64,000 nt of DNA, taken from Bradyrhizobium sp. 200. GTDB lineage: Bacteria; Pseudomonadota; Alphaproteobacteria; Rhizobiales; Xanthobacteraceae. Below the pieces are notes generated by a model. The model worked only from the letters and a program-made list of their open reading frames with translations, did no database searches and had not been told where the DNA came from. The DNA lies in the NCBI RefSeq assembly GCF_023100945.1, contig NZ_CP064689.1, positions 7,608,001 to 7,672,000 of the forward strand, read 5' to 3'. Position numbers and translations under genes: made by a program. Each line of letters begins with the position of its first letter. The stretch's first letter is position 1. Positions 7,871-53,463 of the stretch are shown in pieces.

Positions 7871-8058
7871 TTATCTCTTTGTTACTGCGCTTAGTTCTTT
7901 TCGGCTTGTCGCGAAAGTCGTCTCTCTGGCCCGACGGCCAGGTCACCACTGAATTATGCCCGAGGTGCATAATAGAACTCGTAGTGAAAACACTGGGCAA
8001 ATCCGCGAAACGCCACGATGGACTATCGACGGCCTCGATGACGTTTCTTCTCCTCCCT

Positions 8059-31397: not shown

Positions 31398-31625
31398 ACC
31401 TTCGCAGGCTGCAGCCAGACGGAACCGCGACTCATAATCAGTCATCGACCACGCGCGACATCTGTTCTCGCGCAGGTTCCTAGAACACGAACACTCCTCC
31501 ATCCGCAACTTCCAGAATAATCTTCTTTTCGATCACCCACTGATCTGCGTGCTGGAATTCGGCCATGATCCGGCGAGACCAATGCCGTGTTCGCCAGTCG
31601 TTTGGCGAACCCAGGGGGCGGTCGC

Positions 31626-32981
31626 ATGAATGCCTTCGCTAGCCGACACGCTATCATCATAGGCGGCGGCGCCAGCGGCGTGCTCCTGGCCTATCAGTTG
31701 CTGCAGCGTTCCACTCCCGACTTTCGTGTCACGCTGATCGAGAAACGGCCTGATATCGGACGCGGTCTGGCCTATCATACTGGCAATCCCGAACACGTGC
31801 TCAACGTGCGGGTCGCGAACATGAGCGCACTGCCGGATGAGCCGGATCATTTCTGGCGCTGGCTGACCTCGCGTGAAGGTGTGCCATCGCCCTGTCCCGA
31901 TCCCTATTGTTTCGTACCGCGGCGTATTTACGGCGATTACATTGCCAGCCTGCTGACGATGTCCAAAGGACGCTCGTTGCATCGGCTCTCCATCGTGCAA
32001 GGCACTTGCGTCGACGTCAGCGAGGAGCTGAGCGACGTCGTGGTGAGGTTGGATGACGGCAGTCGTTATGTCGGCGACATCGCCGTTCTCGCGACCGGGC
32101 ACGACATCCGGTCCTGCTCTCCGGGTTACGTCGACCCATGGCTGCCGCCCTCCGCAGCCGGCGTCGATCCCGACGCCACCGTGCTGATCCTTGGCACCGG
32201 GCTGACGATGGTCGACTACATCCAGTCCCTGGTCCACGATGGGCACCGCGGACCGATCGTCGCGATGTCACGCCGCGGTCTGCTGACGAAACCCCATCGC
32301 CATGTGAATCCGATTCGTATCCAGGAAACGGAAGTTCCGTTCGGCGCCAGCATCGGTCAGTTGCTGCGCTGGTTCCGTGGCCGGGTCGACGCGCATGTTG
32401 CCAAGGGTGGCGACTGGCGCAGCGTCAATCGACGGTCTCAGACCGCGCATACAGCGCCTCTGGCGCGAGCTGCCGCCTGCTTCCAAACGCTGCTTCCTCG
32501 AACATGCGCGCGCCTGGTGGGACGTGCATCGCCATCGCATGGCGCCCGAGGTGGAAGCACGCATTACGCATGCGCTTCATGAGGGCCATTTGACCCTGAT
32601 GGCCGCAAAGGTCGCTGGCATCGAGCCGAACGCAAGCGGCGCCCGGGTACGCTACCGCCGACGCGGTCAGGGTGGAGTCCAGAGCATGCAGGTCGGGGCC
32701 ATCGTCGATTGCACCGGGATCGTCAAGGATCCCCTCGCCTCCGCCAATCCGGCGGTGCGAAGCCTGCTCGACCGAGGCCTCGCGCGGGTCGATCAACCCG
32801 GATTGCGCAATCGTCAACCATAGCGGCGTTCCGTCGCGGCGGCTGTTTGCCGTGGGGCCGCTTACCCGCGCCGCTTTCTGGGAGATCATCGCAATCCCCG
32901 ATATCCGTAACCAATGCGCAGCGCTCGCCGCGAAAACTCGCCCGCGTCAGCGAGGCGAGTGTCGCCGCGCGCTGCTCTTAG
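31626..32981 (+). pseudogene. Frameshifted FAD/NAD(P)-binding oxidoreductase (NAD_binding_9 type)
   Basis: The start at 31626 gives HAIIIGGGASGVLLAYQLLQ (FAD motif), IGRGLAYHTGNPEHVLNVRVANMSALPD and VLILGTGLTMVDYI (second Rossmann motif) to about 32426. There an extra A (gtcaatc) shifts the frame. The continuation IDGLRPRIQRLWRELPPASKRCFLEHARAWWDVHRHRMAP is clear up to GLARVDQ near 32800. A second shift leads to NPDCAIVNHSGVPSRRLFAVGPLTRAAFWEI, and an A-run near 32933 shifts again to end at 32981. Three indels break an otherwise well-conserved protein of about 450 residues. It would be an NAD(P)H-linked oxidoreductase of unassigned substrate. Confidence 0.75.
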
Positions 32982-33775
32982 CTATTGAAGCCAGCCGGAA
33001 TGAACGCCGGAATGTTCTCCTCGATGAATTTCTTGACCTCCGGTGAGTTGAAGACCTGGATGAACGCCTTCAGCCGCGGATCATCCTTCTTGTCGGGCCG
33101 GGCGGTGAAGCGCAGCACGAGACCGTCATCGACCGTACGGTCGATGATCAGCGCCGATTTCGGGTCGCCACCGGCCGGAATGAGGTAAGTGATGTTGACG
33201 AGTGCAAGCGTGACGTCGTCGAGCGAGCGATAAGTCTGCGCCGGATCGAGTTCGACAATCTTCAGGTTCTTGGGATTTTCGATGATATCGAACTTGCTGA
33301 CCGAAAATCCCTTGCCCGGCGTTAGTTTGATCAGGCCGGCTCGTTCGAGCAGAATGAGCCCACGGGCGCCATTCAACGGCTCGTTCGGAATCGCCACGCT
33401 GTCGCCGGACTTGATTTCTTCCAGGCTTTTGACCTTCTTCGAGAACAGCCCGACCGGCGCGATCACCCCGACCTTGTCGATCTGAACGAGGTTGAACCCA
33501 CGCTGCTTGTTCTGAAGCGCCAGATAAGTCGCGTGCTGGAACAGATTGGCATCGACGTCGCCGCTGTTGACCACCTCGTTCAGCGCGACCCAGTCGGACA
33601 GCTCGACGATCTTGACGTCCTGCCCCTTCTCCTTGGCGAGCTTCGCGGCAAAGGAGGCCAGCTGCCCGACGGGGCCGGCGCTGGTGGCGATTTTCAGGGG
33701 CCCGTCGGCAACGGCAGCGGCGGTCAATGCCAGTGAAAGGCCTGCGGCCTGTGCCAGGCGCAAAAGTATTCTCAT
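32978..33775 (-). CDS. MetQ/NlpA-family ABC transporter substrate-binding protein (copy 2)
   Basis: 265 residues from the ATG at 33773-33775; the longer frame upstream has no signal peptide logic. The signal peptide is MRILLRLAQAAGLSLALTAA with no lipobox Cys. The mature region has KIATSAGPVGQLASFAAKLAKEKG, ELSDWVALNEVVNSGDVDANLFQHATYL, VAIPNEPLNGARGLILLERAGLIKL and LDDVTLALVNITYL. It is a divergent MetQ. It lies head to head with a flavin monooxygenase gene at 33999 and near MetNI at 35430-37209, so it is the likely partner of that importer. The ligand is probably a sulfur compound other than methionine. Confidence 0.9.
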   Translation of the reverse strand: MRILLRLAQAAGLSLALTAAAVADGPLKIATSAGPVGQLASFAAKLAKEKGQDVKIVELSDWVALNEVVNSGDVDANLFQHATYLALQNKQRGFNLVQIDKVGVIAPVGLFSKKVKSLEEIKSGDSVAIPNEPLNGARGLILLERAGLIKLTPGKGFSVSKFDIIENPKNLKIVELDPAQTYRSLDDVTLALVNITYLIPAGGDPKSALIIDRTVDDGLVLRFTARPDKKDDPRLKAFIQVFNSPEVKKFIEENIPAFIPAGFNS

Positions 33776-33998
33776 GGTCTTTACGTCCGTTTCTTGTTGA
33801 GTATCCCGATATGAAAATGATGCGCGTTGAATAGAGCGCTGTCGAGACGCTGCGAAAAATAGCGATATGCGTGCTGCAGCCCGACTGCATGGCAGCACGA
33901 TTTACGTTCCCATCGCTTGAATTGAAAACAACGTTATCCGGGCAAGATGCTAAACGGTTATCGAGCATCACAGAGACATGCTTCCCGGGAGCCAACCG

Positions 33999-35411
33999 AT
34001 GGCCAAACCACGAGAACTCCTATTCAACGCCTTCAACATGACGGCGCCGAGCCACAATTGGGCTGGCCTGTGGTCGCACCCGCGGGATACATCGATCAAC
34101 TACAACTCGCTGGATTACTGGATCGACTACGCCAGGACGGCGGAGCGCGGGCTGCTCGACGGCATCTTCCTCGCCGACGTCTTCGGGGTCTATGACGTCT
34201 TCGGCGACAATGCGGACACGGCGATACGTCATGCCGTGCAATTGCCGAACGCCGAGCCGACGCTGCTGGTCTCGGCCATGGCGTTGGCGACGAAACACCT
34301 CGGCTTCGGCATCACCTCGAACCTCACGTTCGAGCACCCGTATCAGCTGGCCCGCCGTTTCTCGACGCTCGATCACCTCACCAACGGTCGAATCGGCTGG
34401 AACATCGTCACCGGCTATCTCGACAGCGGCGCGCGCGGCATGGGTCTGCCCGCCTCGCGCGTCCATGACGAGCGCTATGACGCGGCTGAGGATTTTTTGG
34501 AAGCCTCCTACAAACTATGGGAAGGAAGCTGGGAAGATGATGCGGTCCGCCGCGATCGCGACGCGCGCATCTTCACTGATCCGGCGAAGGTTCATCCGGT
34601 CCGCCACGACGGAAGCCATTATCGCGTCAACGGTATTCACCTCGCCGAACCCTCACCGCAGCGAACGCCCCTGCTGTATCAGGCGGGAACCTCGAAGCGT
34701 GGCCGCGCCTTTGCCGCCCGGCATGCGGAAGCGATCTTTCTCAACGGCCAGACCAAACCGATCCTGGCGCGCGCCGCCCGCGAAATCAGAAGCGCGGCAA
34801 AGGAGTTCGGCCGCGATCCTTACGACATCAAGCTGTTTGCCGGAGCAACCGTGATTGTGGCGCCGACGCGTGCCGAGGCTGAAGATATCCTCGAAGACTA
34901 CGCCCGGCATGTCGACCAAGCCGGTCAGCTTGCATTGCTCTCAGGCTGGACCGGCATCGATTTCTCGACCTACCAGCCCGATCAGGCCGTGCAATATGTC
35001 GAGAGCAACGCGATCCAGTCGATGGTGGAGAATTTCACGCTGCGAAGCGATCGTCCCGTCCGTATTGGAGACCTCGCCACCCTCAGCCGGGTCGGCGCAC
35101 GCTCCCCCTTCGTCGTCGGCTCACCCCAAGACGTAGCCGATGAATTGATCGCCTGGGCCGAGGAGACCGATGTCGACGGCTTCAATCTGTTCCGGCTGGT
35201 GGTGCCGGAATCGCTGACTGCTTTCGTCGACCTGGTGGTGCCGGAACTGCAATCGCGCGGGGTCTACAAGACCGCCTACCGCGAGGGCACCTTGCGCGAA
35301 AAGCTGTTTCCGGGGCGAGGCGCTCGCCTGCCCGCGGTACACCCGGCAGCAAGCTATCGCCGCCTGGGGGCTTCGTCGGCAAGCGACGCGCGATCGGACG
35401 CCGCCGAATAG
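33999..35411 (+). CDS. Flavin-dependent LLM monooxygenase, NtaA/SnaA/DszA type (copy 1)
   Basis: 470 residues from the ATG at 33999 with GGGAG seven bases upstream. Bacterial luciferase-like fold. Family blocks: AERGLLDGIFLADVFGVYDV, LATKHLGFGITSNLTFEHPYQLARRFSTLDHLTNGRIGWNIVTGYLDS split in its blocks, KLWEGSWEDDAVRRD, and QTPLLYQAGTSKRGRAFAARHAEAIFL in the variant QRTPLLYQAGTSKRG. It uses FMNH2 from a separate reductase (candidate at 46225) to oxygenate or cleave C-S or C-N bonds. The context of MetQ and MetNI genes suggests desulfurisation of an imported thio-compound. Confidence 0.92.
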   Translation: MAKPRELLFNAFNMTAPSHNWAGLWSHPRDTSINYNSLDYWIDYARTAERGLLDGIFLADVFGVYDVFGDNADTAIRHAVQLPNAEPTLLVSAMALATKHLGFGITSNLTFEHPYQLARRFSTLDHLTNGRIGWNIVTGYLDSGARGMGLPASRVHDERYDAAEDFLEASYKLWEGSWEDDAVRRDRDARIFTDPAKVHPVRHDGSHYRVNGIHLAEPSPQRTPLLYQAGTSKRGRAFAARHAEAIFLNGQTKPILARAAREIRSAAKEFGRDPYDIKLFAGATVIVAPTRAEAEDILEDYARHVDQAGQLALLSGWTGIDFSTYQPDQAVQYVESNAIQSMVENFTLRSDRPVRIGDLATLSRVGARSPFVVGSPQDVADELIAWAEETDVDGFNLFRLVVPESLTAFVDLVVPELQSRGVYKTAYREGTLREKLFPGRGARLPAVHPAASYRRLGASSASDARSDAAE

Positions 35412-35429: not shown

Positions 35430-36095
35430 TCAGCGATGCCGTAACCGGCGGTTGACTCGCTTCGCGAAATAATCGCCGACGGTCTGCACCGTCTGCACGA
35501 GTGCGATCAGCACGATCACGACGGCGAGCATCATCTCAGGCATGAAGCGCTGGTAGCCATAGCGAATGCCGAGGTCGCCGAGACCGCCGCCGCCGACCGC
35601 GCCGACCATAGCCGAATAGCCGAGCAGGCTGACCACCGCGAGCGTCAGGGCCAGCAAGAGTGCCGGCGACGCCTCAGGAACCAGGACCTTGAGCACGATC
35701 TGCAGCGGGGTGGCGCCAAAGGAGGACGCGGTCTCGATCAGGCCTGCGTCTACTTCGCGGATCGCCGCTTCGACCAGACGGGCGATGAAGGGCGTCGCCG
35801 CGATCGTCAATGGCACGATTGCTGCCCCCGACCCGATCGATGTTCCCGCAATGAGCCGCGTGAACGGAATGATGGCGACGACCAGGATGATGAAGGGCGT
35901 CGACCGGGTGGCGTTGACGATGACACCCAGCACCGCGTTGAGCTTGGGCGCGGCGAACAGTTCGCCCTTCCCGCTGGTTGCCAGGAAGATGCCGATCGGC
36001 AGGCCGAACAACGTTGCCACCAGGGCGGCAACGGCGACCATGAACAGGCTTTCGCCAGTGGCCTGGATGATCAGGTTGATGAGTTCAGGCGACAT
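35430..36095 (-). CDS. Methionine-type ABC transporter permease (MetI-like)
   Basis: 221 residues from the ATG at 36093-36095. The hydrophobic protein has five or so helices, and motifs INATRSTPFIILVVAIIPFTRLI (here VNATRSTPF), GAAIVPLTIAATPFIARLVEAAIREVD (EAA loop), and LGYSAMVGAVGGGGLGDLGIRYGYQRF, characteristic of MetI. Its start overlaps the MetN stop by 11 bases. It forms the channel for the nearby MetQ-like proteins. Confidence 0.95.
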   Translation of the reverse strand: MSPELINLIIQATGESLFMVAVAALVATLFGLPIGIFLATSGKGELFAAPKLNAVLGVIVNATRSTPFIILVVAIIPFTRLIAGTSIGSGAAIVPLTIAATPFIARLVEAAIREVDAGLIETASSFGATPLQIVLKVLVPEASPALLLALTLAVVSLLGYSAMVGAVGGGGLGDLGIRYGYQRFMPEMMLAVVIVLIALVQTVQTVGDYFAKRVNRRLRHR

Positions 36096-37209
36096 AGCCG
36101 AGACGCTCCGCTGAGAATTGATGTTGCGACAGATAAGTGAGGACCTGCGGCGCGGTGGCGTCGCCACCGGGAACGCCGATCGTCAGCGATCCGACCCGCT
36201 GGCCGCCGATCTCATCGATGCGCGCCGACAACAGCGCGACGTCAACGGACAGCTCACGCGCCAGGCGGGCCACGACCGTGTCGCCGGCGTCGCCGCGGAC
36301 CAGGACACGAATGACGGCCTGCCCACCCGTAACCGGCTTTTCCTGCAGGCGGCTCGCGAGCGAGACCGGCAGCGAATCGCCGAGGACCTCAGCAAGGAAC
36401 GTCTGGGTGATCGGTTGTTTTGGATGGGTGAAGATATCGGCGACATGTCCCCGTTCGACAATGTCGCCGGCATCGATGACGACGACCTCGTTGGCGAGTT
36501 GCCTGACGACGGACATTTCGTGGGTGATCAGGACGATGGTCACGCCGAGTTTGCGGTTGATGTTGGCGAGCAGGTCAAGGATCGCACGCGTGGTCTGCGG
36601 ATCGAGCGCCGAGGTCGCCTCATCCGACAGCAGCACGCTGGGCCGCGTCGCCAGCGCGCGCGCAATGCCGATGCGCTGCTTCTGGCCGCCGGACAATTCG
36701 GATGGGTACCGATCGTGCTTGTCGGCGATATCGACGAGATCGAGCAGTTCGGTCACGCGCACCGCGATGTCGGTCTTCGACCAGCCGGCGATTTCGAGCG
36801 GCAAAGCGATATTGGCCGCCGCCGTCCGCGACGACAGCAGGTTGAAGTGCTGGAAGATCATGCCGATGGAACGCTGCGCCAGCCGCAGCTCGCGGCCGGA
36901 CAGCGCAGAGATATCGCGACCATCGACCTCGACGCGACCGGCGGTTGGCTTTTCCAGACCGTTGATGAGCCGGACGAGGCTCGACTTGCCGGCGCCCGAG
37001 CGGCCGATGACGCCGGTGATCGAACCCCGGGGAATAGCGAAATCGATGTTCTGCAGCGCCCGTACACTCGGCTTGCCGCGATAGGCCGGATAGGTCTTTT
37101 CCACGCCTTCGAACCGCACCATCGCGTCCACCTTGGCAGCAACACGCTCGGGCGGCGGTGAAAACGGCTCGAGCGGCTGCGAGGCCGTCAAGGATTGATG
37201 CACATTCAT
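36085..37209 (-). CDS. Methionine-type ABC transporter ATP-binding protein (MetN-like) with NIL domain
   Basis: 374 residues from the ATG at 37207-37209. Walker A GRSGAGKSS, Q-loop FQHFNLLSSRT, signature LSGGQKQRIGIARAL, Walker B VLLSDEATSALD, H-loop ITHEMSVV. The C-terminal 80 residues (VIRVLVRGDAGDTVVARLARELSVDVALLSARIDEIG) form the NIL/ACT-like regulatory domain that in MetN senses internal methionine. It contains about 35 extra N-terminal residues before VRFEGVEKTY. It is 52 bases downstream of the ferredoxin gene on the same strand, so one transcript may carry flavoprotein, ferredoxin, MetN and MetI. Confidence 0.94.
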   Translation of the reverse strand: MNVHQSLTASQPLEPFSPPPERVAAKVDAMVRFEGVEKTYPAYRGKPSVRALQNIDFAIPRGSITGVIGRSGAGKSSLVRLINGLEKPTAGRVEVDGRDISALSGRELRLAQRSIGMIFQHFNLLSSRTAAANIALPLEIAGWSKTDIAVRVTELLDLVDIADKHDRYPSELSGGQKQRIGIARALATRPSVLLSDEATSALDPQTTRAILDLLANINRKLGVTIVLITHEMSVVRQLANEVVVIDAGDIVERGHVADIFTHPKQPITQTFLAEVLGDSLPVSLASRLQEKPVTGGQAVIRVLVRGDAGDTVVARLARELSVDVALLSARIDEIGGQRVGSLTIGVPGGDATAPQVLTYLSQHQFSAERLGYVA

Positions 37210-37261
37210 CAGGAATTCCAGCTCTTCGATTTGGTCGCCTGCGTTGCGGGCGGCCTGGATA

Positions 37262-37582
37262 TCAATGACCGAACAGCAGATAGCTGCGGTCGATGTCGCG
37301 GCGGTCTTTCGTTTCCTCGGTCCAGCCGACCGCCCGGCGATAGCTTCCGAGCAGCGCATTTTGCCTCAGCGCCTCGAGATCGACGTTCTGCGGAATATCT
37401 GCGAACGGTGAGACGAACAGCGCGTCCTCGGGGCAATAGAGTTCGCAGAGAAAACACGTCTGACAGTCAGCCTGGCGCGCGATGACAGGAATTCCATGGG
37501 TCTTGTCGAAGACGTTGGTCGGACAGATGTTCACGCAGATATCGCACGACGTGCAGCGCTGCGCATCGATGACCTCTATCAT
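37262..37582 (-). CDS. 2x[4Fe-4S] ferredoxin-type protein (AprB-like partner)
   Basis: 106 residues. Cys10-x2-Cys13-x2-Cys16-x3-Cys20-Pro and Cys40-x2-Cys43-x2-Cys46-x3-Cys50-Pro give two [4Fe-4S] clusters. A tail of about 55 residues (DIPQNVDLEALRQNALLGSYRRAVGW) follows, as in beta subunits that clasp a flavoprotein. The ATG overlaps the flavoprotein stop by 4 bases. It should pass electrons to or from that FAD subunit. The arrangement recalls AprAB (adenylylsulfate reductase), but the substrate here is unknown. Confidence 0.9.
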   Translation of the reverse strand: MIEVIDAQRCTSCDICVNICPTNVFDKTHGIPVIARQADCQTCFLCELYCPEDALFVSPFADIPQNVDLEALRQNALLGSYRRAVGWTEETKDRRDIDRSYLLFGH

Positions 37583-39207
37583 TCCGCGGCCTCCGCATAA
37601 ACGGCCTCGGCATGCGGGCGCACCGAAGTCCAGACCTCATCGAGACCGCCCGACGTGATGTAGTGGCGCTGGCGGTTATCCTGGTCCGGGAAATCATCGC
37701 GGCGGTGCATACCCCGGCTCTCCTGTCGCGCCAATCCGCTGCGGTACATCCACCGCGCCGTTGCCAGCATGGACGCGCTCTCGCGGGCACGAAATACGTC
37801 GTCAGCGCCGGCGGCATCCGCCTGGGCCACTTCGCTCCAGAGCGCATCGAGCCTTTCAAGCGAACCACCGAGCCGGCCCGCTTCGCGGAAGTAGTTGAGC
37901 TCGTAGGGAAAGACCTCATCCTGAACCGCTTTGGCGAGCTCGGCCGGCTTGAACGACCGTTCGGCGCGCTGGCGCAACGCCAGGGTTCCGGCGGATGAGA
38001 GCCTGCGTCCGCGTGCAGGACCGGCATGGCGCGCATAGTCGGCGGCCCCCCGCCCGGCAAAGGTGCCTGATGACATTGCCCAGGCGGCGTTGTGGCTGCC
38101 GCCGCCGGTAAAGCCGCCGCAGATCAACTCGCGCGTCGCCGCATCGCCCGCCGCATAGAGCCCGGCCACGGTGGTCGCGCAGCTGTCATCGACGATCCGA
38201 AGTCCACCGGTGCCGCGCACGGTACCCTCGAGCCGCAAGGTCACGGGAAAGCGGTCGGCAAAGGGATCGATACCGGTGCGATCGAAGGGCAGGAAGAAGT
38301 TCGGCTGCGAGACCCGCATCTGGCGCTGCACGTCGCCATCGGCCTTGTCGAGCCGGGCATAGACCGGGCCCTGCGTCAGGGCACGGGCGATCGCCGAGCG
38401 TCCGCCCTTCGAGGCCGCGCCGGGCACGACGCTGCCATCTTCGTAGGTGAACGTGGCCCAGCCATAGAACAGCGTCTTGGTCACCGAGCCGAAGGCGGCG
38501 GAAATCGCATAGGGGTTGGAAAATTCCATGCTGCTGAATTCAGCACCCGCCTCAGCCGCCATCAGGTAGCCGTCGCCGGTCAGCACGTTCGAGCCCAGTG
38601 TCTTGCTGAGGAAAGCACAGCCGCCGGTCGCGATCACGACGGCCCTGGCGCGCACGGTCCAGCGATCGTGCTTATGGCGGCGCAGGCCGCTCGCGCCTGC
38701 GACGGCCCCCTTTTCATCGACCAGCAGCTCCAGCGCCGGGCTGTGATCGAGAATGGTGACACCGGCCTGCTTGGTGCGCTTGCGCATCAGCCGCATGTAT
38801 TCCGGGCCCTGCAGCGAGTTGCGCTGGGATTTTCCGTTGTCGTCGACCGGATAGGGATAACCCCAGTCGGCCAGCCGGTTGCTCTGCTCATAGGTGCGAT
38901 CGAGCACGCGCGCCATCCAGCGGCGGTCCTGCAGATGGCCCCCCAGCTTCTCGCGATTGGCCATCGCGGCTTCGCGCAGCGCCGGTTCGGGATCGACGTA
39001 CCAGACGCCGGTGCCGGCCGCGGCGGTAGCGCCGGAGGTTCCGCAAAAGCCCTTGTCCGCGAGCACAACGCGCGCGCCCCGTTCCGCCGCGCTGATCGCC
39101 GCCCATGTGCCGGCCGGACCACCGCCGACGATGAGGACATCGGCATCGAACTCGACGGAACCAGCAGGGGCGGACACCCTTTCGGCGCGCGTGGATTGAA
39201 CTGTCAT
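37579..39207 (-). CDS. FAD-dependent oxidoreductase, fumarate reductase/AprA-like flavoprotein
   Basis: 542 residues. FAD motif VLIVGGGPAGTWAAISAAERGARVVLADKG near residues 24-52 in blocks, ARAVVIATGGCAF, DGYLMAAEAGAEFSSMEFSNPYAIS, GLYAAGDAATRELICGGFTGGGSHNAAWAMSSG, and the C-terminal QESRGMHRRDDFPDQDN typical of the SdhA/NadB/AprA superfamily. The usual fumarate or succinate catalytic stretch (HPTG after the MEF segment) is replaced by SNPYAIS, so the substrate differs. It is paired with a two-cluster ferredoxin and a MetNI importer inside a sulfur locus, so a sulfur-oxyanion or thio-compound redox role is inferred. Confidence 0.88.
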   Translation of the reverse strand: MTVQSTRAERVSAPAGSVEFDADVLIVGGGPAGTWAAISAAERGARVVLADKGFCGTSGATAAAGTGVWYVDPEPALREAAMANREKLGGHLQDRRWMARVLDRTYEQSNRLADWGYPYPVDDNGKSQRNSLQGPEYMRLMRKRTKQAGVTILDHSPALELLVDEKGAVAGASGLRRHKHDRWTVRARAVVIATGGCAFLSKTLGSNVLTGDGYLMAAEAGAEFSSMEFSNPYAISAAFGSVTKTLFYGWATFTYEDGSVVPGAASKGGRSAIARALTQGPVYARLDKADGDVQRQMRVSQPNFFLPFDRTGIDPFADRFPVTLRLEGTVRGTGGLRIVDDSCATTVAGLYAAGDAATRELICGGFTGGGSHNAAWAMSSGTFAGRGAADYARHAGPARGRRLSSAGTLALRQRAERSFKPAELAKAVQDEVFPYELNYFREAGRLGGSLERLDALWSEVAQADAAGADDVFRARESASMLATARWMYRSGLARQESRGMHRRDDFPDQDNRQRHYITSGGLDEVWTSVRPHAEAVYAEAAE

Positions 39208-39523
39208 CGCTCAATGTCTCCGGGCAACTTCGATCGCGATCGGCATTGCGCCGCCCCGTCATGGTTGCGCGCACCCGCGCCGGTGGCAATTTCAGATATT
39301 TGCCGAGACTTGGACGAAGCTTTCCCTGCTGCCGCCGACAGAAGAAGATTCATGTGGTGACGCATGGGATGTTTTGTTCTTGCCTATGCGCAACATGAGA
39401 TTTTCGCGCCCAGTGCAGCATCGGAGATGGATTTTTCTTTTTGCTTGCGCATGCTCCGATTCGTTTTCTTCAGCGCCGACACGCAGTATCTCGTTCACTA
39501 CCTCCCATCAAAGCATAGCAACG
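39208..39523. other. Divergent promoter region
   Basis: About 315 bases between the flavoprotein gene (leftward) and the second NtaA-type monooxygenase gene (rightward). It is AT-richer than the coding flanks around 39360-39480. An in-frame extension of the rightward gene to 39374 is possible but its residues do not look like the family. No palindrome was clear enough to report. Confidence 0.45.
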
Positions 39524-40864
39524 ATGTCCTCCCGTCAGCTTCATCTCAACGTCAATCTGCTGCACTCCGGCGTCTACGCCTCGGCATGGCGGCTGCCCGA
39601 AAGCGACCCTCGCGCCTGCTTCGACGTCGGCCACTACGTGCGCGTTGCCCAGATCGCGGAGCGCGGCAGACTGGACGCGATCTTTCTGGCGGACACGCCC
39701 GCGATTACCGACCGGATCGACTATCGCTCGTTCATGTCGCTGGAGCCGACCATCGTGCTGGCGACGGTCGCGGCTGCCACCAGCCACATCGGCCTGATTG
39801 CCACGGCATCTACGACCTACAATGAGCCCTACAACATCGCCCGCCGCTTCGCGACGCTCGATCTCGCCAGCGGCGGCCGTGCCGGCTGGAACGCGGTGAC
39901 CACGGCCGATGCCTCCGCCAGCCGCAACTTCGGCCTTCCCAGCGTGCTGGAACACAAGGCACGCTACGACCGCGCCAAGGAATTTGCCGAAGTCGTGCAC
40001 GCGCTTTGGGATAGCTGGGAAGACGACGCTTTCGTCGGTGACAAGGCCAGCGCGCGGTTCGTCGATACGTCCAAGGTGCATCCGATCGCGCATCGCGGTG
40101 CGCATTATTCCGTAGCGGGGCCGCTCAACCTGCCGCGCTCGCCGCAGGGGCGTCCGGTCACCGTGCAGGCCGGCGGATCCAGCGACGGCCGCGATCTCGC
40201 CGCGGCGCAGGCCGAAGCGGTGTTCACGCTGGCGCAGACCATCGAGGAAGGCGTCGCCTATGCGCAGGACTTGCGCACCCGCGCCGTTGCCTATGGCCGC
40301 GCCGCCGACTCGATCGTCATCCTGCCCGGGCTCGCGACCGTGATCGGCAGCACCGAAGCGGAAGCCAAACGGCGGCAGGACGAACTCTGGGAACTCGTCC
40401 CGATCGAATACAGCCTTGCGCGCCTGGCCGGGACGCTGCAGATCGATCCGGCGTTGCTCGAACTCGACAAGCCTCTGCCCGACCCGTTGCCACTGCCTCC
40501 CAATGCCAACCACACCATGTTCCAGGGAACCGTGAACATCGCCCGCCGCGGTAACCTGACTGTGCGCCAATTGCTGCGCGCGCTCGGCGGCGGCGTAGGT
40601 CACCGCATCATCGTCGGCACGCCGGAACAGATCGCCGACGACATCGAAGCATGGTTCAAGGCAGGCGCCGCCGACGGCTTCAACCTGATGCCGGACGTGC
40701 TGCCTTCGGGGCTCGAGGTGTTCGTCGACAGCGTGGTGCCGATCTTGCAGAAGCGCGGACTGTTCCGGAGCGACTATGCCGGAACGACGCTGCGCAGCCA
40801 TTTCGGGCTGCCGCATCCGCCGAGCCGGTTTGCCGGCCCGACGCCCGCCGCCGCTTCCGCCTGA
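39524..40864 (+). CDS. Flavin-dependent LLM monooxygenase, NtaA/SnaA/DszA type (copy 2)
   Basis: 446 residues from the ATG at 39524 (MSSRQLHLNVNLLHSG). Motifs: IAERGRLDAIFLADTPAI, IGLIATASTTYNEPYNIARR, GGRAGWNAVTTADASASRNFGL, LWDSWEDDAFVGD, and RPVTVQAGGSSDGRDLAAAQAEAVF. It shares long blocks with the copy at 54306 and less with the copy at 33999, so the window holds paralogs of different ages. It requires reduced FMN from a reductase. It is convergent with the SsuD/SfnG-like gene at 40869, four bases apart. Confidence 0.92.
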   Translation: MSSRQLHLNVNLLHSGVYASAWRLPESDPRACFDVGHYVRVAQIAERGRLDAIFLADTPAITDRIDYRSFMSLEPTIVLATVAAATSHIGLIATASTTYNEPYNIARRFATLDLASGGRAGWNAVTTADASASRNFGLPSVLEHKARYDRAKEFAEVVHALWDSWEDDAFVGDKASARFVDTSKVHPIAHRGAHYSVAGPLNLPRSPQGRPVTVQAGGSSDGRDLAAAQAEAVFTLAQTIEEGVAYAQDLRTRAVAYGRAADSIVILPGLATVIGSTEAEAKRRQDELWELVPIEYSLARLAGTLQIDPALLELDKPLPDPLPLPPNANHTMFQGTVNIARRGNLTVRQLLRALGGGVGHRIIVGTPEQIADDIEAWFKAGAADGFNLMPDVLPSGLEVFVDSVVPILQKRGLFRSDYAGTTLRSHFGLPHPPSRFAGPTPAAASA

Positions 40865-40868
40865 ACCG

Positions 40869-41963
40869 TCAACGCGTCGCTGCCAGCGCGGCCGGCTTTT
40901 CAAGCGACCCCGCTGACTGCAACGCCCGCACACGCGGAATGATTTCCTTGGCGAAGCGCTCCATCTCAGCCTCGAACGGCTGGAACTGCAGCATGAACAG
41001 CTCGATCCCCGCCGAATGGAAGGCACCGATGCGCGCGGCGACCTCGTCGTAGCTGCTGACCAGCCCCGCTGCGGTACCACCATTGCTGCCGACCCGCGCG
41101 GTCTTCTGCATGGTCTGCATCATCACGACTTTTGGATCGGTGTTCGCCTTCTGGATCGCCTTGATCGGCGCGTCCTTGGCCGACAGCTCCAGCAACCGGG
41201 CGTAAGCGCTTTGCGCCTCCTCATCGGTCTCTCGCGCGATCACGAATGCCGAGAGGCCGAAGCGCAACGGCGCGGACTGGCGCGGCCGTGCCGCGACATC
41301 GGCGATCAGTCCGGCAACGTCTTCCAGCGGCTGGCCGTTGATGAACCAGACGTCGCCGTGGTCGGCGACCAGCGCGCGGGCCGGCTCCGACTCGCCGCCG
41401 ACATAGATCAGCGGTCGCGGCCGGTAGAGGCTTGATGGCCGCAGCACGTAGTCGCGCACGTCGAAGTGCTCGCCCTTGCAGGTCAGGCGTTCGCCCTGCG
41501 TCAGCCGCGATACGACTGATATCCACTCGCGGCCGTAAGCGTAGCGCGCGTCGTGCTCCGGAAAACCGATTCCGGCCTTGTCGAGCTCCGGCCGATTCCA
41601 GGCGTTGACGAGGTTGATCGCGAATCGACCGTGGCTGATGTTCTCGATGCCGAGCGCCAGCTTGGCGAGCACCACCGGATGATAGAGATACGGCTTGATG
41701 GCGGCGATGATCTCGATCCGGCTGGTCAATGCCGCAACGGCGGCCGCGGCGCTCCACGCTTCCAATTGGTCGAGATCCTCCTGGTGAGGATTGATCGTGT
41801 GCTGGGCGATCAAGGTCGAATCGTAGCCGAGCCTTTCCGCGGCTAATACGAGATCGCGATTGCGTTCCCACGACGCGTCATAGGGTTCTTCAGGGTCCTG
41901 ATATGCGGCGCGTGAGCCATGCACCAGTGCCCAGATTCCGAAACGAAGCGGTCGTGCCGTCAT
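40869..41963 (-). CDS. FMNH2-dependent LLM monooxygenase, SsuD/SfnG/MsuD-like
   Basis: 364 residues from the ATG at 41961-41963 (MTARPLRFG). Blocks typical of alkanesulfonate and dimethylsulfone monooxygenases: AERLGYDSTLIAQHTINP, IEIIAAIKPYLYHPVVLAKLALGIENISHGRFAINLVNAWNR, FPEHDARYAYGREWI, LTCKGEHFDVRDYVLRPSSL and PRPLIYVGGESEPARALVADHGDVWFING cut in blocks. It should release sulfite or sulfinate from a C1 or short alkyl sulfonate or sulfone. Specificity among SsuD, MsuD and SfnG cannot be settled by eye. It diverges from an Ssu-type transporter operon at 42271. Confidence 0.87.
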   Translation of the reverse strand: MTARPLRFGIWALVHGSRAAYQDPEEPYDASWERNRDLVLAAERLGYDSTLIAQHTINPHQEDLDQLEAWSAAAAVAALTSRIEIIAAIKPYLYHPVVLAKLALGIENISHGRFAINLVNAWNRPELDKAGIGFPEHDARYAYGREWISVVSRLTQGERLTCKGEHFDVRDYVLRPSSLYRPRPLIYVGGESEPARALVADHGDVWFINGQPLEDVAGLIADVAARPRQSAPLRFGLSAFVIARETDEEAQSAYARLLELSAKDAPIKAIQKANTDPKVVMMQTMQKTARVGSNGGTAAGLVSSYDEVAARIGAFHSAGIELFMLQFQPFEAEMERFAKEIIPRVRALQSAGSLEKPAALAATR

Positions 41964-42270
41964 GTGTGATCTCTTCCCGGTTGCCTGCGTTATCCGTCGC
42001 GTGGAAGCCACGCCTGCAAAAAGCCTTGTCTGTTATTCGCCGCGACGGCCAACAGATCAAGCAACGAGGTGCAAAAAGATAATCCTTGCCGCACCGCGCG
42101 CGCGGAGAAATCAGAAACACTATGGAACGAATGACAATTGAAAAACCACTCTATTTCTGTCGGAGCGAAATCGTGGGACAGTTTCCGGTGTGAGAAACCG
42201 AATGCATTCACGCGGCGACATCGTTGCCGATTGAGTGCGCGCCGATCTCTGCCTTGCGCCGACTGCGCCG
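41964..42270. other. Divergent promoter region
   Basis: About 300 bases between the leftward SsuD/SfnG-like gene and the rightward transporter operon. It is AT-richer near 42080-42160. No palindrome or riboswitch-like element was recognised. Sulfur-responsive control (for example CysB/SsuR-like) is plausible for the locus but no site is evident. Confidence 0.4.
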
Positions 42271-43173
42271 ATGCGCGCGATGAATGAGGATCGATCCATC
42301 TTGAGCAATCTCGAACAGACCGCTTCCTCGGCCGCATTCGATCGATTGCCACGCGAAGACAAAGGCGATGTGACTTCGATGTCACCGCGGGCACCGTTCG
42401 AGTTCAGCCGGCGCGGCTTGCAACTGCTCTCCTGGCTCGCGCCAGTCGTTCTCCTCATCGTTTGGGAGGTGCTGGCGCAGGCCGGATGGTTGACGCCGCA
42501 AATCCTGCCGGCACCGAGCAAGGTTATAAAGACCGCGTTCAAGCTTACGACGACCGGAAGTCTCTTGAACGATCTTGGCGTCAGCCTCGCCCGCGCGGCT
42601 GCCGGATTTGCAATCGGCGGCGCTGTCGGCTTCGTGCTCGGCACCCTGGTCGGCTTCTCGCGCGTCGCCGAAGCCGCCATCGACCGCAGCGTGCAGATGA
42701 TTCGCGCGATCCCGTTCCTGGCTGTTCTGCCGCTGGTGATCGTCTGGCTGGGCGTCGGCGAAGCAGAAAAGATATTTCTGGTCGCGCTCGGCGTCACTTT
42801 CCCGATCTACATCAACACTATCCTGGGTATCCGCCAGGTCGATCCAAAATTGATCGAACTCGGTCGCGTCCAGGGGCTCGGCACCATCGAGTTGATCCGG
42901 CGGATCATTCTTCCCGGCGCCCTGCCCTCGATCCTTACCGGCGTTCGCTATGCGCTCGCCACAGCCTGGCTCGCTCTGGTTGTCGCCGAAACCATCGGTG
43001 CGCAGTCCGGCATCGGGTTCCTCGCCATGGATGCGCGCGAGTTCCTGCGTACCGACGTCGTCGTCCTGACGATCGTGATTTATGCGCTGATCGGCGTCGC
43101 GGCCGACGGCATCGCCCGCTTTCTGGAGCGGCGCCTGCTCGCCTGGCACCCGAACTACGGAGCCGCGCGATGA
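42271..43173 (+). CDS. Sulfonate/taurine-type ABC transporter permease (SsuC-like)
   Basis: About 300 residues from the ATG at 42271; in-frame ATGs at 42280 and 42379 are alternatives, and the last gives the 264 residues usual for SsuC. Six helices are expected, with the EAA loop KLIELGRVQGLGTIELIRRIILPGALPSILTGVRYALATAWLALVVAE seen in its blocks and WLTPQILPAPSKVIKTAF near the start. It forms the pore with the ATPase whose ATG overlaps its stop (43170-43173) and the binding protein at 43918. Confidence 0.9.
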   Translation: MRAMNEDRSILSNLEQTASSAAFDRLPREDKGDVTSMSPRAPFEFSRRGLQLLSWLAPVVLLIVWEVLAQAGWLTPQILPAPSKVIKTAFKLTTTGSLLNDLGVSLARAAAGFAIGGAVGFVLGTLVGFSRVAEAAIDRSVQMIRAIPFLAVLPLVIVWLGVGEAEKIFLVALGVTFPIYINTILGIRQVDPKLIELGRVQGLGTIELIRRIILPGALPSILTGVRYALATAWLALVVAETIGAQSGIGFLAMDAREFLRTDVVVLTIVIYALIGVAADGIARFLERRLLAWHPNYGAAR

Positions 43174-43895
43174 CGCTCCACGTCGCTCCCGCCTCGACCA
43201 CCGCCTCCCCGGCCGTCGTGGTAGCGAATCTGCGCCGCGCCTATGGCAGCCGGGTCGTCATCGAGAACCTCAATCTGCGCATTGAGCGCGGCGAGTTCGT
43301 CGTGCTGCTTGGCGAGAGCGGATGCGGCAAGACCACGCTGCTCCGGGCCCTCGCCGGGCTTGATCCGATCGACGGCGGACGCATCGTGGCGCCGCGCCGT
43401 CCTGCCGTCGTTTTCCAGGAACATCGCCTGCTGCCGTGGGAAAGCCTTTGGCGCAACGTATCGCTGGGCCTTCAGGCTTCGGACGCGCGTCAGCGCGCCT
43501 CAGCGGCGCTGTCCGAGGTGGGGCTCGCCGAACGTCTCGACGACTGGCCGCGCAACCTCTCGGGCGGACAGGCGCAGCGCGTGGCCCTGGCGCGCGCACT
43601 GGTTCAAGAGCCCGAGCTCCTTCTGCTCGACGAACCCTTTGCCGCGCTGGACGCGCTGACCCGCATCCGCATGCACGCGCTGGTCCGTGAACTGGTGGCG
43701 GTCCACCGGCCCGGTGTCCTGCTGGTCACGCACGATGTCGACGAGGCCATCGCGCTGGCCGACCGCATCCTGGTGATGCGCGAAGGCCGCATTGCCTTCG
43801 AGCACCGCACCAAAGGCGACGGCACGACTCCGATAGGGCGTGCGGAGTTGCTCGCAGAACTTGGCGTCGTTGCGTCTCCTCCCATCACTGCCTGA
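43170..43895 (+). CDS. Sulfonate/taurine-type ABC transporter ATP-binding protein (SsuB-like)
   Basis: 241 residues. Walker A GESGCGKTT, Q-loop VFQEHRLLPWESLWRNV, signature LSGGQAQRVALARAL, Walker [14 protein letters not shown]-loop VTHDVDEAI. These are typical of the SsuB/TauB/NrtD family. It is coupled by ATGA overlap to the permease. It energises import for the Tat-exported binding protein encoded 22 bases downstream. Confidence 0.94.
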   Translation: MTLHVAPASTTASPAVVVANLRRAYGSRVVIENLNLRIERGEFVVLLGESGCGKTTLLRALAGLDPIDGGRIVAPRRPAVVFQEHRLLPWESLWRNVSLGLQASDARQRASAALSEVGLAERLDDWPRNLSGGQAQRVALARALVQEPELLLLDEPFAALDALTRIRMHALVRELVAVHRPGVLLVTHDVDEAIALADRILVMREGRIAFEHRTKGDGTTPIGRAELLAELGVVASPPITA

Positions 43896-43917
43896 GCTTC
43901 TTTGTAAGGACCGAGCC

Positions 43918-44916
43918 ATGACTGACTTTTCGCAACCAACCCGCCGCCGCTTCCTTGGCACCGCCGCAGCCAGCGTTGGCGCCCTCACAGGCATTGGAGT
44001 CTCTGAAAACGCCCTGTCGGCGACCGGCCGCACCACGGACAAGGTGTGCTTGACCTGGGGCCTGAGCGGTCTCAACCTGATCGCCAAGGAGCGCGGCGAA
44101 TTCGAAAAGCTGTTGGCAAAGGACGGCATCAAGGTCGAATGGCTTGGTCCGTTCCCAAACCACGCTCCGACGCTGCAGGCCGTGACCGGCGGCAGCGCCG
44201 ATTTCAGTTTCGGCGGCAGCACCACGCCGGCGTTGGCCGCCATCATCGCGGGATCACCGCTGGTATTCACGCAGTTCGTGGTCTACGAGCCGCGCACCAC
44301 CGCGATCATCGCCAAGGACGATTCCGGCATCGACAAGGTCGAGGACCTCGTCGGCAAGTCGGTCGCGGTGAACCGCTCGGGGCTGGGCGAATTCATCCTG
44401 GTGGCCGCGCTCGAAAAGTACAAGGTGGACCGCTCGCAGGTGAAATTCGTCTATCTCAACCCGCCCGATGCCGCCCCCGCGCTGGCCTCCGGAAAGGTCG
44501 ATGCCTGGGCGATGTGGAGCCCCGGAGTCGATATCGCCAAGCTCGAATACAAGGCGCACGACATCTTCCTCGAGGGCCGCGATCTCGATTTCCAGATCGA
44601 CTACACCTCCTACCTCACCACCCGAAAATTCGCGGCCGACAATCCCGCCCTGGTCCGTGCCGTCAACGACGCCTTCCGCGCCGAAGGAAAGTGGATCTCC
44701 GAGAACAGCAAGGGCGCCGAATACATCGCGCAAAAGGCCGGCAAGTACAGCGACCAGGTCCGCGATCAGTTCATCGCCCTCAACCGTCAATACCGCTATT
44801 TCGCGGCCAATGACTGGCAGTTCGTCGGCAATCTGCAGAAAGCCACCGACTGGCTGGTCGCGCGCAAGGTTCTGCCGGAGCCGGTCAAGGTGACCGACCA
44901 TCTGGCGGAAGTTTGA
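43918..44916 (+). CDS. Sulfonate-type ABC transporter substrate-binding protein (SsuA-like) with Tat signal
   Basis: 332 residues. The N-terminus TRRRFLGTAAASVGALTG is a twin-arginine signal. The mature part resembles SsuA/NMT1: VCLTWGLSGLNLIAKERGEFEKLL, GSADFSFGGSTTPALAAIIAGSPLV, DLVGKSVAVNRSGLGEFILVAALEK, and DAWAMWSPGVDIAKLEYKA. It presents an organosulfonate-like ligand to the permease/ATPase pair upstream. The following genes (DszC-like monooxygenase, flavin reductase, serine acetyltransferase) suggest the ligand is a sulfur source. Confidence 0.92.
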   Translation: MTDFSQPTRRRFLGTAAASVGALTGIGVSENALSATGRTTDKVCLTWGLSGLNLIAKERGEFEKLLAKDGIKVEWLGPFPNHAPTLQAVTGGSADFSFGGSTTPALAAIIAGSPLVFTQFVVYEPRTTAIIAKDDSGIDKVEDLVGKSVAVNRSGLGEFILVAALEKYKVDRSQVKFVYLNPPDAAPALASGKVDAWAMWSPGVDIAKLEYKAHDIFLEGRDLDFQIDYTSYLTTRKFAADNPALVRAVNDAFRAEGKWISENSKGAEYIAQKAGKYSDQVRDQFIALNRQYRYFAANDWQFVGNLQKATDWLVARKVLPEPVKVTDHLAEV

Positions 44917-44953: not shown

Positions 44954-46183
44954 ATGAACAAGCCTGTACCTGCCACTTCCCTGGAACACTCGCATCGCCT
45001 CGATCTCCGTTCGCCGGATCTCGACGCGCTTCTCGACCGGATCACTGAGGGCGCCAGCGACCGGGAGCGTGAGCGCACCCTTCCGTTTCCGGAGATTGAT
45101 CTCATCCGGAAAGCCCGCCTAGGCGCGCTCAGATTGCCTGCAGCCGTCGGCGGCGCCGGCAGCTCCATTCGGGAGTTGTTCGAGATCGTCACCCGCCTCG
45201 GCGAGGCCGACGCCAACGTGGCGCATATCCTGCGTAACCATTTCAGCGTGGTCGAGCGGCTGATCCGGCGGCCACAGACCGATCAGCACCGGGAATGGCA
45301 GAAAGCGGTCGCCGACGGCGCCATCATCGGGTTGGCGGCAACCGAACTGGAAACGCCAAAGGTCGGCGACGTCAAGCCGAACACGACACTGTCGTCGGAC
45401 GGTGACAACTATTTGCTTGATGGCACCAAGTATTACAGCACCGGCACGCTTTATTCGGACTATGTCCTGGTCCGCACCGCCGATACCTCCGGCGCCAACG
45501 CCGCCGCCCTGATCCCGGTGAACCGCGAAGGCGTCGAATTGATCGACGATTGGGATGGCCTCGGACAACGGCTCACCGCGACGGGAACAACTCATTTCCG
45601 CAATGTCCGGGTCAAGCGGCAGGAGGTCGTGTTCGACGCACCTGATGCCGGCTACGGCATCCCATATGCCAACACCTTTGCACAGCTCTTCCTGACCGCG
45701 ATCAATGCCGGCATCGCCCGCGCCACGCTGCGCGATGCCACGGCGCTGGTCCAATCGCGCAAGCGGACATTCTATTTCGCTCCGGCCGAAGTGCCCATCT
45801 TCGATCCGCTTCTGCAACAGACCGTCGGCCAGATCGCCAGCGGTGCGTTCGCCGCGGAAACAGTCGTACTGGCGGCGGCTGAAGCACTCGACATCGCGAC
45901 CGATGCGTTCGAAGCCGGCGCGGCTAATGCCGGCGAGGCTGCGCATCGGGCAGCGCTGTTGTCGGCCAAAGCCAAGATCGTCGCCGACGAATTCGCCATC
46001 CGCGGCGGCAGCCTGCTGTTCGACGTCGGCGGCGCCTCCGCCACCAAGAAGGTCACCAATTTCGATCGCCACTGGCGCAACGCGCGGACGCTCTCCTCGC
46101 ACAACCCGACCACCTACAAGGCGCGCTCGATCGGGCAGTACGAGATCAGCGGCACGCCGCTGCCCGCCAAGGGTTTCTTCTAG
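44954..46183 (+). CDS. Acyl-CoA dehydrogenase-fold flavin monooxygenase (DszC/SfnC-like)
   Basis: 409 residues. Acyl-CoA dehydrogenase-like domains: N-terminal helices (RERERTLPFPEIDLIRKARLGALRLPAAVGGAG), middle beta domain (GLAATELETPKVGDVKPNTTLSSDGDNYLLDGTKYYSTGTLYSDYVLVRT in its blocks), and C-terminal helices. The catalytic Glu of true dehydrogenases is not apparent; SDNYL-type YYSTG and DDWDGLGQRLTATGTT match DszC/SfnB-type monooxygenases that oxidise sulfur with reduced flavin. The adjacent FMN reductase at 46225 can supply FMNH2. Probably an S-oxygenating step in organosulfur use. Confidence 0.87.
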   Translation: MNKPVPATSLEHSHRLDLRSPDLDALLDRITEGASDRERERTLPFPEIDLIRKARLGALRLPAAVGGAGSSIRELFEIVTRLGEADANVAHILRNHFSVVERLIRRPQTDQHREWQKAVADGAIIGLAATELETPKVGDVKPNTTLSSDGDNYLLDGTKYYSTGTLYSDYVLVRTADTSGANAAALIPVNREGVELIDDWDGLGQRLTATGTTHFRNVRVKRQEVVFDAPDAGYGIPYANTFAQLFLTAINAGIARATLRDATALVQSRKRTFYFAPAEVPIFDPLLQQTVGQIASGAFAAETVVLAAAEALDIATDAFEAGAANAGEAAHRAALLSAKAKIVADEFAIRGGSLLFDVGGASATKKVTNFDRHWRNARTLSSHNPTTYKARSIGQYEISGTPLPAKGFF

Positions 46184-53066: not shown

Positions 53067-53463
53067 AACGATCGACCTCATTTGTGGTCGATAAATCGTA
53101 GAAGCGAACGACCGGCAGTCAATGAAATGAAATCAGCGTTGTTTGCGCGAACCGATAATGATCGCGTCGTTGTCGATCTACACGCTGGAATATTTACAGC
53201 GATCGCGGCTTGCGAGTCACGATCCCACGCGTTCCGACCTTGATTGAACACACGAAACGCGAATTCCTGTTGCTTTCGGACGTGACTGACAACGGTGAGA
53301 CGCACACTCACTCCGATTTCGGATCAACGCATGCGTTTCATGCTCGGGTCTTGCGCAACATTGCAAATTCATTTCATCGACATCATCGCGAGCGCAGACG
53401 TAGAGTCCGATGCGTGCCGTTTGACACGCAAGCCGTCAAACACAACGGTGATGGATATTGGCA
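53067..53463. other. Divergent promoter region
   Basis: About 400 bases between the leftward FMO/AtsK/ABC operon and the rightward methyltransferase operon. Rightward frames here lack protein texture. No palindrome was judged significant. It presumably holds two sulfur-responsive promoters. Confidence 0.45.

Follow-up and report, generated by a model that had tools for sequence, protein, structure and literature searches.

A window of 64,000 nucleotides from the 9.49-Mb genome of Bradyrhizobium sp. 200 (contig NZ_CP064689.1, positions 7608001-7672000) was analyzed with respect to two adjacent genes, which encode a flavin adenine dinucleotide (FAD) protein and a small ferredoxin with two predicted [4Fe-4S] clusters. 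Judged from sequence, the superfamily of the pair is known but the family is new, and so is the place in sulfur assimilation to which it is tied. We consider it about evenly balanced whether the pair processes an imported organosulfur compound and frees its sulfur, probably reductively as sulfite, in the position held in other systems by SsuD or TauD. The two genes stay together across loci, the FAD proteins form a clade of their own, the dicarboxylate and AprA motifs are lost and a new conserved constellation of residues is present. The pair is linked to transporters, also at loci where no oxygenase was detected.

A FAD-ferredoxin pair in the complex-II-type superfamily

The open reading frame (ORF) list and profile scans gave the order FAD protein, ferredoxin, MetN-type ATPase and MetI-type permease on the minus strand, from 39207 down to 35430; the original prediction has this gene order, with the genes on one strand. 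The ferredoxin start and the FAD gene end overlap by 4 bp. The two subunits are as follows.

37579..39207, minus strand: FAD subunit (alpha), 542 amino acids, complex-II/AprA fold, active-site type I (CGGFTGGGSHNAAW); from domains, fold and motif pattern
37262..37582, minus strand: 2[4Fe-4S] ferredoxin subunit (beta), 106 amino acids, conserved tail GxYRxxxGW; from domains and alignment

The FAD protein had been assigned to the SdhA/AprA superfamily, and its domains (FAD_binding_2, 2.3e-24; Succ_DH_flav_C, 6.4e-10) and fold confirm that it is a complex-II-type flavoprotein. The structure comparison speaks to the fold only and discriminates no family; no close identity with a characterized enzyme appeared among the solved structures listed (16-24% identity). 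The curated cutoffs for FrdA, SdhA and NadB were missed by a wide margin (TIGR01812, 99.1 against 567.3 bits; TIGR00551, 95.3 against 452.75 bits). Membership in AprAB was rejected as well: TIGR02061 matched a portion of the protein only, with 32.3 bits at a cutoff of 641.75, and five fetched AprA proteins scored 775-991 bits with the same model. An identity as L-aspartate oxidase was also discarded, the genome having a separate NadB elsewhere (G000:C1:3772719-3774125; 456.1 bits, cutoff 452.75). Among the relatives, P0016 carries the public name "L-aspartate oxidase", and many other named proteins are called "succinate dehydrogenase/fumarate reductase flavoprotein"; both names are likely misnomers.

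Phylogeny had been proposed as a check, and it placed the FAD family as one clade of 51 sequences (support 100/100), separate from NadB, SdhA and AprA, the last forming its own clade with 100/100. The joining order of AprA, NadB/SdhA, the FAD family and a further clade with a twin-arginine-like N-terminus is not settled in this tree, where long branches were flagged. The 51-member set consists of 46 alignment rows plus five sequences from the search of same-phylum genomes (L120, L121, L122, L123 and L125). Not added from that search were L119, which is the window itself, L124, which has a stop, and the fragments L126-L128. The alignment took in 29 of the 34 genome-contig loci (L040, L059, L061, L062 and L064 are fragmentary), and FCC_L086 was excluded from the tree. 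The twin-arginine-like FAD proteins (L067, L069, L070, L071 and L074) have a small ferredoxin gene upstream and come from Archaeoglobi, Shewanella, Octadecabacter, Verrucomicrobiota and Neptunomonas; L067 and L070 fall under the cutoffs of the best 25 NCBIfam matches listed.

The catalytic stretch had been described as different from fumarate reductase, and the motif counts bear this out. By pattern, FHPT, HYxMGG and HGANR were each found in 0/51 sequences and the PRD-type motif in 1/51, compared with 5/5 each in NadB/SdhA; we take these four motifs to serve dicarboxylate binding and proton shuttling. In addition to this loss and the separate clade, the pair differs from fumarate reductase, succinate dehydrogenase and L-aspartate oxidase in that the partner of the FAD subunit is a single short ferredoxin. 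The motifs RFKDxYGPVG, GSH and HKFSSGS, which were taken from fetched AprA proteins and presumably form the adenylylsulfate (APS) site, were present in 9/9 AprA and 0/51 family members. Instead, the family has conserved motifs of its own: [ED]G[TS][VIM]RGxGG (49/51), AGDxxxR[EQ] (51/51), and R331, R359 and W376 (51/51 each).

Two active-site types were distinguished. Type I has a CGGFTGGGSHN-like sequence and comprises 26/51 members, the window included; the other 25/51 are type II. Two minus-strand matches in L017 were excluded from the count as chance pattern matches. Nine of the 57 labelled loci (defined below) carry two FAD and two ferredoxin genes, and in each of the nine a type I protein is combined with a type II protein. 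The nine (L015-L018, L023, L043, L045, L048 and L064) belong to four same-genus genomes, three Paenibacillus or Cohnella, one Nonomuraea and one Actinomadura; in L048 the second ferredoxin and the second FAD gene do not adjoin. Plain duplication would not predict type I plus type II at every two-copy locus; this pairing suggests two successive steps or two substrates.

The ferredoxin contains two CxxCxxCxxxC motifs and a tail of ~45 residues past the ferredoxin domain, in which G79, G86 and W87 are invariant (alignment of n = 28, for which 27 of 30 pattern-found ferredoxins were taken in, with L050, L056 and L062 left out). The prediction of a two-cluster ferredoxin with a long tail was therefore correct, although the tail is shorter than that of the fetched AprB proteins (whole AprB ~140-160 amino acids). 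The AprB chains 1jnr_B and 3gyx_B and the phosphoadenylylsulfate (PAPS) reductase beta chain 8a8o_C align within ferredoxin residues 1-93, where most other rows end at about residue 65; these matches are weak, all with Z < 8. The AprB sequence CWEC (9/9 fetched proteins), whose tryptophan we take to function in electron transfer, is CQ[TS]C in 28/28 aligned family ferredoxins, and CETC occurs in 1/14 members of a smaller ferredoxin alignment (L031). The counterpart of this tryptophan in the PAPS reductase of M. thermolithotrophicus (MtPAPSR) is Trp42, according to PMC10322725. The likeness to AprAB thus extends to the fold, the two-gene make-up and a ferredoxin tail that aligns with AprB at low Z. 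As a statement about family it does not stand, since the AprA motifs are missing throughout, CWEC is replaced, the tail is shorter and the AprA model score is far under its cutoff.

Distribution and transporter linkage of the family

The family is patchy. It was found in 8/299 same-phylum genomes, own genome included (E up to 1e-30), and, among the matches listed, in Nostoc and other cyanobacteria, actinomycetes, Paenibacillus, Cohnella and a metagenome-assembled genome of Capsulimonas. It is also present in 59 plasmid records. Neighbors were labelled at 57 loci: the window, 9 loci from 9/24 same-genus genomes (L018 and L019 with incomplete FAD genes), 13 plasmid loci picked by hand for spread from the 59 records, and 34 genome-contig loci among the matches listed by the scan. 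Each neighbor took its label from the gene that matched it best in BLAST, either an annotated gene or one of the hand-labelled window genes.

A ferredoxin label was present at 54/57 loci and adjacent to the FAD gene, by the rule of the script, at 51/57, and because of this recurrence the pairing is not due to chance. The other labels were SsuA (43 loci), SsuB (40), SsuC (40), luciferase-like monooxygenase (LLM; 25), SfnB (14), MetQ (13), TauD (8), and MetN and MetI (8). The original prediction coupled the pair to a MetNI importer. MetN and MetI do lie beside the pair in the window, but the coupling is not general: they occur together near the pair at 8/57 loci, 6 of these in the Bradyrhizobium group, and MetNI was rejected as the defining partner of the family. 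The usual partner is a transporter of the SsuABC type.

For comparison, 46 control loci were used, which are weaker matches from the same scan in other taxa and somewhat shorter (median 16.2 versus 17.5 kb). Two or more SsuABC-type genes were found at 20/34 genome-contig loci and 0/46 control loci, and any sulfur-scavenging gene at 29/34 and 4/46, respectively; the Fisher values of this comparison treat loci as independent, which relatives are not. The survey of neighbors called for in the original prediction hence gave a strong transporter linkage and supports its idea of a redox enzyme linked to the import of a sulfur compound, with the importer being SsuABC-type in most relatives.

Within 3 kb of the pair, an Ssu gene runs in the same direction at 18/34 genome-contig loci and 9/13 plasmid loci, and 10/18 and 6/9 of these, respectively, have no oxygenase label. 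At one of the six plasmid loci (L021), a cytochrome P450 and redox partners are annotated upstream. Minimal operons are found, for example, in Paenibacillus cellulositrophicus (L023) and Paracoccus aminophilus (L030). The ORFs of 120 codons or more that surround the pair at the ten genome-contig loci and had no label, 44 in total, were all scanned with Pfam and gave regulators, hydrolases, kinases, transporters and others, or no match; a further ORF in L036 is a second NMT1-type binding protein. No oxygenase domain was found in the flanking ORFs of 8/10 of these loci.

Two further labels recurred near the pair. D-2-hydroxyacid dehydrogenase adjoins it or lies near it at 7/57 loci (L026, at 8023-8976; L035; L015-L018; L047), and these neighbors gave no pointer to the substrate. 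An AhpC/TSA-type or peroxiredoxin label was seen at 8/57 loci (L027, L028, L047, L048, L051, L055, L057 and L063), and the AhpC-TSA domain of the L027 neighbor was confirmed by a domain check.

Genes around the pair in the Bradyrhizobium window

The pair is followed by the MetN- and MetI-like genes and is surrounded by further genes of sulfur scavenging. FMN denotes flavin mononucleotide, ABC ATP-binding cassette.

ORF 36085..37359, minus strand: MetN-like ABC ATPase with NIL domain; TIGR02314 378.8 bits, below the cutoff of 499.7; NIL 2.6e-14
ORF 35430..36167, minus strand: MetI-like permease; NF008049 219.4 bits, above the cutoff of 212
33978..35411, plus strand: NtaA/DmoA family FMN monooxygenase between metI and metQ; TIGR03860 530.8 bits, above the cutoff of 279.7
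32978..33898, minus strand: MetQ/NlpA substrate-binding protein, beyond the opposite-strand NtaA-type monooxygenase; profile scan
39374..40864, plus strand: NtaA/DmoA family FMN monooxygenase, divergent from the FAD gene; TIGR03860 527.4 bits, above the cutoff of 279.7
40869..42011, minus strand: SfnG/SsuD-like FMN monooxygenase; TIGR04021 215.4 bits, below the cutoff of 382.95
42235..43173, plus strand: SsuC-like permease; NF008470 289.2 bits, below the cutoff of 347
43191..43895, plus strand: SsuB-like ATPase, later part of ORF 42462-43895; best NCBIfam match NF008420 (aliphatic sulfonates ATPase) 224.3 bits, below the cutoff of 395
43840..44916, plus strand: SsuA-family substrate-binding protein; TIGR01728 151.7 bits, below the cutoff of 163.5
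44954..46183, plus strand: SfnB-like acyl-CoA-dehydrogenase-fold protein; TIGR04022 296.9 bits, below the cutoff of 430.9

By its profile scores the ATPase is a MetN-type ATPase: it missed the methionine equivalog cutoff (TIGR02314), and both the NIL domain and a MetI score above cutoff were found. The start of metN is likely at 37209 or later and that of metI likely near 36095, overlapping metN; the MetQ/NlpA protein is the probable partner of MetNI. Farther out follow a second SsuABC-type set, TauD, another LLM and two more MetQ-type proteins. Between 27778 and 56542 the window holds two SsuABC-type sets, TauD, the SfnB-like protein, four LLM and three MetQ-type proteins in total, and this part (~27.8-56.5 kb) looks like a dense sulfur-scavenging island. 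A promoter and terminator scan gave a signal no higher than in shuffled sequence.

Within the island, a PF13454 FAD-NAD(P)-binding ORF at 31587-32582 (plus strand) encodes 331 amino acids; its paralog at 51627-53081 has 484 and the Azospirillum neighbor in L020 has 494. A further open stretch (32377-32823, plus strand), without Pfam match, lies in another frame. The ORF is possibly frame-disrupted.

Proposed function and alternatives

Our functional statements on the pair, which concern substrate class, reductive direction, sulfite product, electron donor and cell location, are drawn from sequence, fold and gene neighborhood. The products of the two genes would assemble into a probably cytoplasmic heteromer, one subunit with FAD and the other with 2[4Fe-4S]. 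The neighboring ABC importer, SsuABC-type in most relatives and MetNIQ here, would deliver an organosulfur compound to it, whose sulfur would be made assimilable under sulfur limitation. Most likely, a cellular ferredoxin would supply electrons that reach FAD by way of the two clusters, and the reduced FAD would cut an S-C or S-O bond and release sulfite, in analogy to the chemistry of APS and PAPS reductase. Oxygen would not be needed. The monooxygenases of the window may handle other compounds, or the same compound before or after the pair.

In the operons ssuEADCB and tauABCD, an importer is encoded together with the enzyme that releases sulfur from the imported compound. That enzyme is the O2-dependent SsuD or TauD, whereas in the present family the FAD/[4Fe-4S] pair seems to occupy the slot. 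Because an importer and a pair without visible oxygenase repeat this operon logic, the pair probably acts on the imported compound. Reduction is favored because a 2[4Fe-4S] partner is of the low-potential electron carrier kind and because APS and PAPS reductase have the same make-up (PMC10322725). A third argument comes from Rhodobacter capsulatus, for which PMC11423573 reports a Ssu-type importer with a metal-cluster isethionate reductase (SsuABC-IsrBHDK) that gives sulfite for assimilation under anaerobic conditions. The pair may work likewise, although IsrBHDK uses nitrogenase-like and radical-SAM proteins according to the same text and the family described here is an FAD/ferredoxin pair.

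Several observations weigh against this proposal. An alkanesulfonate that is not activated is chemically difficult to desulfonate by reduction. Since flavin cleaves unactivated C-S bonds with difficulty, the substrate is more likely to be an activated sulfonate or sulfate ester than a plain alkanesulfonate. The mechanism of AprA is not directly transferable because its motifs are absent. At 5/34 genome-contig loci (L035, L042, L048, L052 and L065) no sulfur-scavenging label was found. Two of the ten label-free loci have a monooxygenase-type ORF after all: L066 an FMO-like monooxygenase on the opposite strand, and L045 an ORF in which a polyketide cyclase domain is combined with one for antibiotic-biosynthesis monooxygenase. 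SsuA_fam was the best match of all 7 binding proteins scanned, with 2 above and 5 below the cutoff, and the assignment is broad, as SsuA-family proteins include binders of other anions. In the window, three LLM and an SfnB-like protein lie near the pair, which could serve rather than replace them. Finally, PMC11423573 reports that a mutant in rcc02232, an FAD-dependent oxidoreductase of the R. capsulatus sulfonate locus, still grew on isethionate; rcc02232 may or may not be a family member, and the best 120 of 4839 protein matches name no R. capsulatus protein.

The main rival to the reductive reading is an oxidative dehydrogenase, which would abstract a hydride from the carbon backbone of the organosulfur compound taken up and send the electrons via the clusters to a cellular acceptor, leaving a labile C-S bond or a product for another pathway. 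The pair shares the fold of succinate dehydrogenase and L-aspartate oxidase, where hydride abstraction (from succinate or aspartate) is the rule, and the D-2-hydroxyacid dehydrogenase labels at 7/57 loci would fit such a reaction. We nevertheless judge it rather unlikely, as all four carboxylate/proton-shuttle motifs are lost or nearly so and no downstream carbon enzyme was found to recur among the unlabelled ORFs (n = 44) at the ten minimal loci.

It is distinctly improbable that the pair, as a relative of AprAB or PAPS reductase, reduces APS or PAPS or oxidizes sulfite from the neighboring monooxygenases. Sulfite is the expected product of SsuD/TauD-like enzymes, fold and subunit make-up are shared, and the PAPS reductase beta chain was the top Foldseek match of the ferredoxin model (E 0.038, weak). 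However, the AprA motifs are absent in all 51 sequences, and another part of the genome encodes a CysH-like APS/PAPS reductase homolog (158.9 bits, under the model cutoff of 235.3), which makes a role of the pair in ordinary sulfate reduction unlikely. MtPAPSR (8a8o) is 20% identical, compared as a whole-length match only. Unlike MtPAPSR, the pair is transporter-linked, and sulfate-activation genes (cysD/cysN) were labelled near it at L030 alone among the 57 loci.

An electron-supply module for the neighboring LLM and SfnB monooxygenases would match their frequency (25/57 and 14/57 loci) and the three LLM genes that flank the pair in the window. Yet 10/18 genome-contig loci with a co-directional Ssu gene lack a monooxygenase label, even if two of these ten have the other monooxygenase-type ORFs mentioned above. 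LLM enzymes take reduced flavin from NAD(P)H reductases; in the domain scan, the ferredoxin showed no NAD(P)H-reductase domain, and the Pyr_redox_2 match of the FAD subunit falls on its FAD domain. We regard this role as very unlikely. The least credible alternative, a non-sulfur enzyme linked to the import of another anion, could appeal to the other binders in the SsuA superfamily, with a "Nitrate transport protein" among the solved relatives of the binding proteins, and conflicts with the SfnB, LLM, TauD, MetNIQ and arylsulfatase labels that cluster with the pair.

A wider version of the reductive proposal is put forward tentatively, as possible rather than probable. Type I and type II FAD/2[4Fe-4S] reductases, alone or in succession, could free sulfite from compounds imported by SsuABC or MetNIQ, and could constitute an undescribed O2-independent organosulfur route across several phyla, a third sulfur-releasing class in aerobic soil bacteria beside SsuD-type monooxygenases and TauD-type dioxygenases. 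Searches of the open-licence text of PubMed Central listed no paper on the FAD-ferredoxin pair, subscription literature and preprints lying outside their scope.

For aerobic soil bacteria, the usual account of how sulfonates and sulfate esters give up their sulfur is oxygen chemistry (SsuD, TauD) or hydrolysis. A flavin/iron-sulfur enzyme linked to a transporter would extend this account by a redox route and would explain importers without a detected monooxygenase. It would also correct the names "L-aspartate oxidase" and "succinate dehydrogenase/fumarate reductase" on some family members. Because the loci are self-contained, the substrate can be tested directly by screening the binding protein for ligands.

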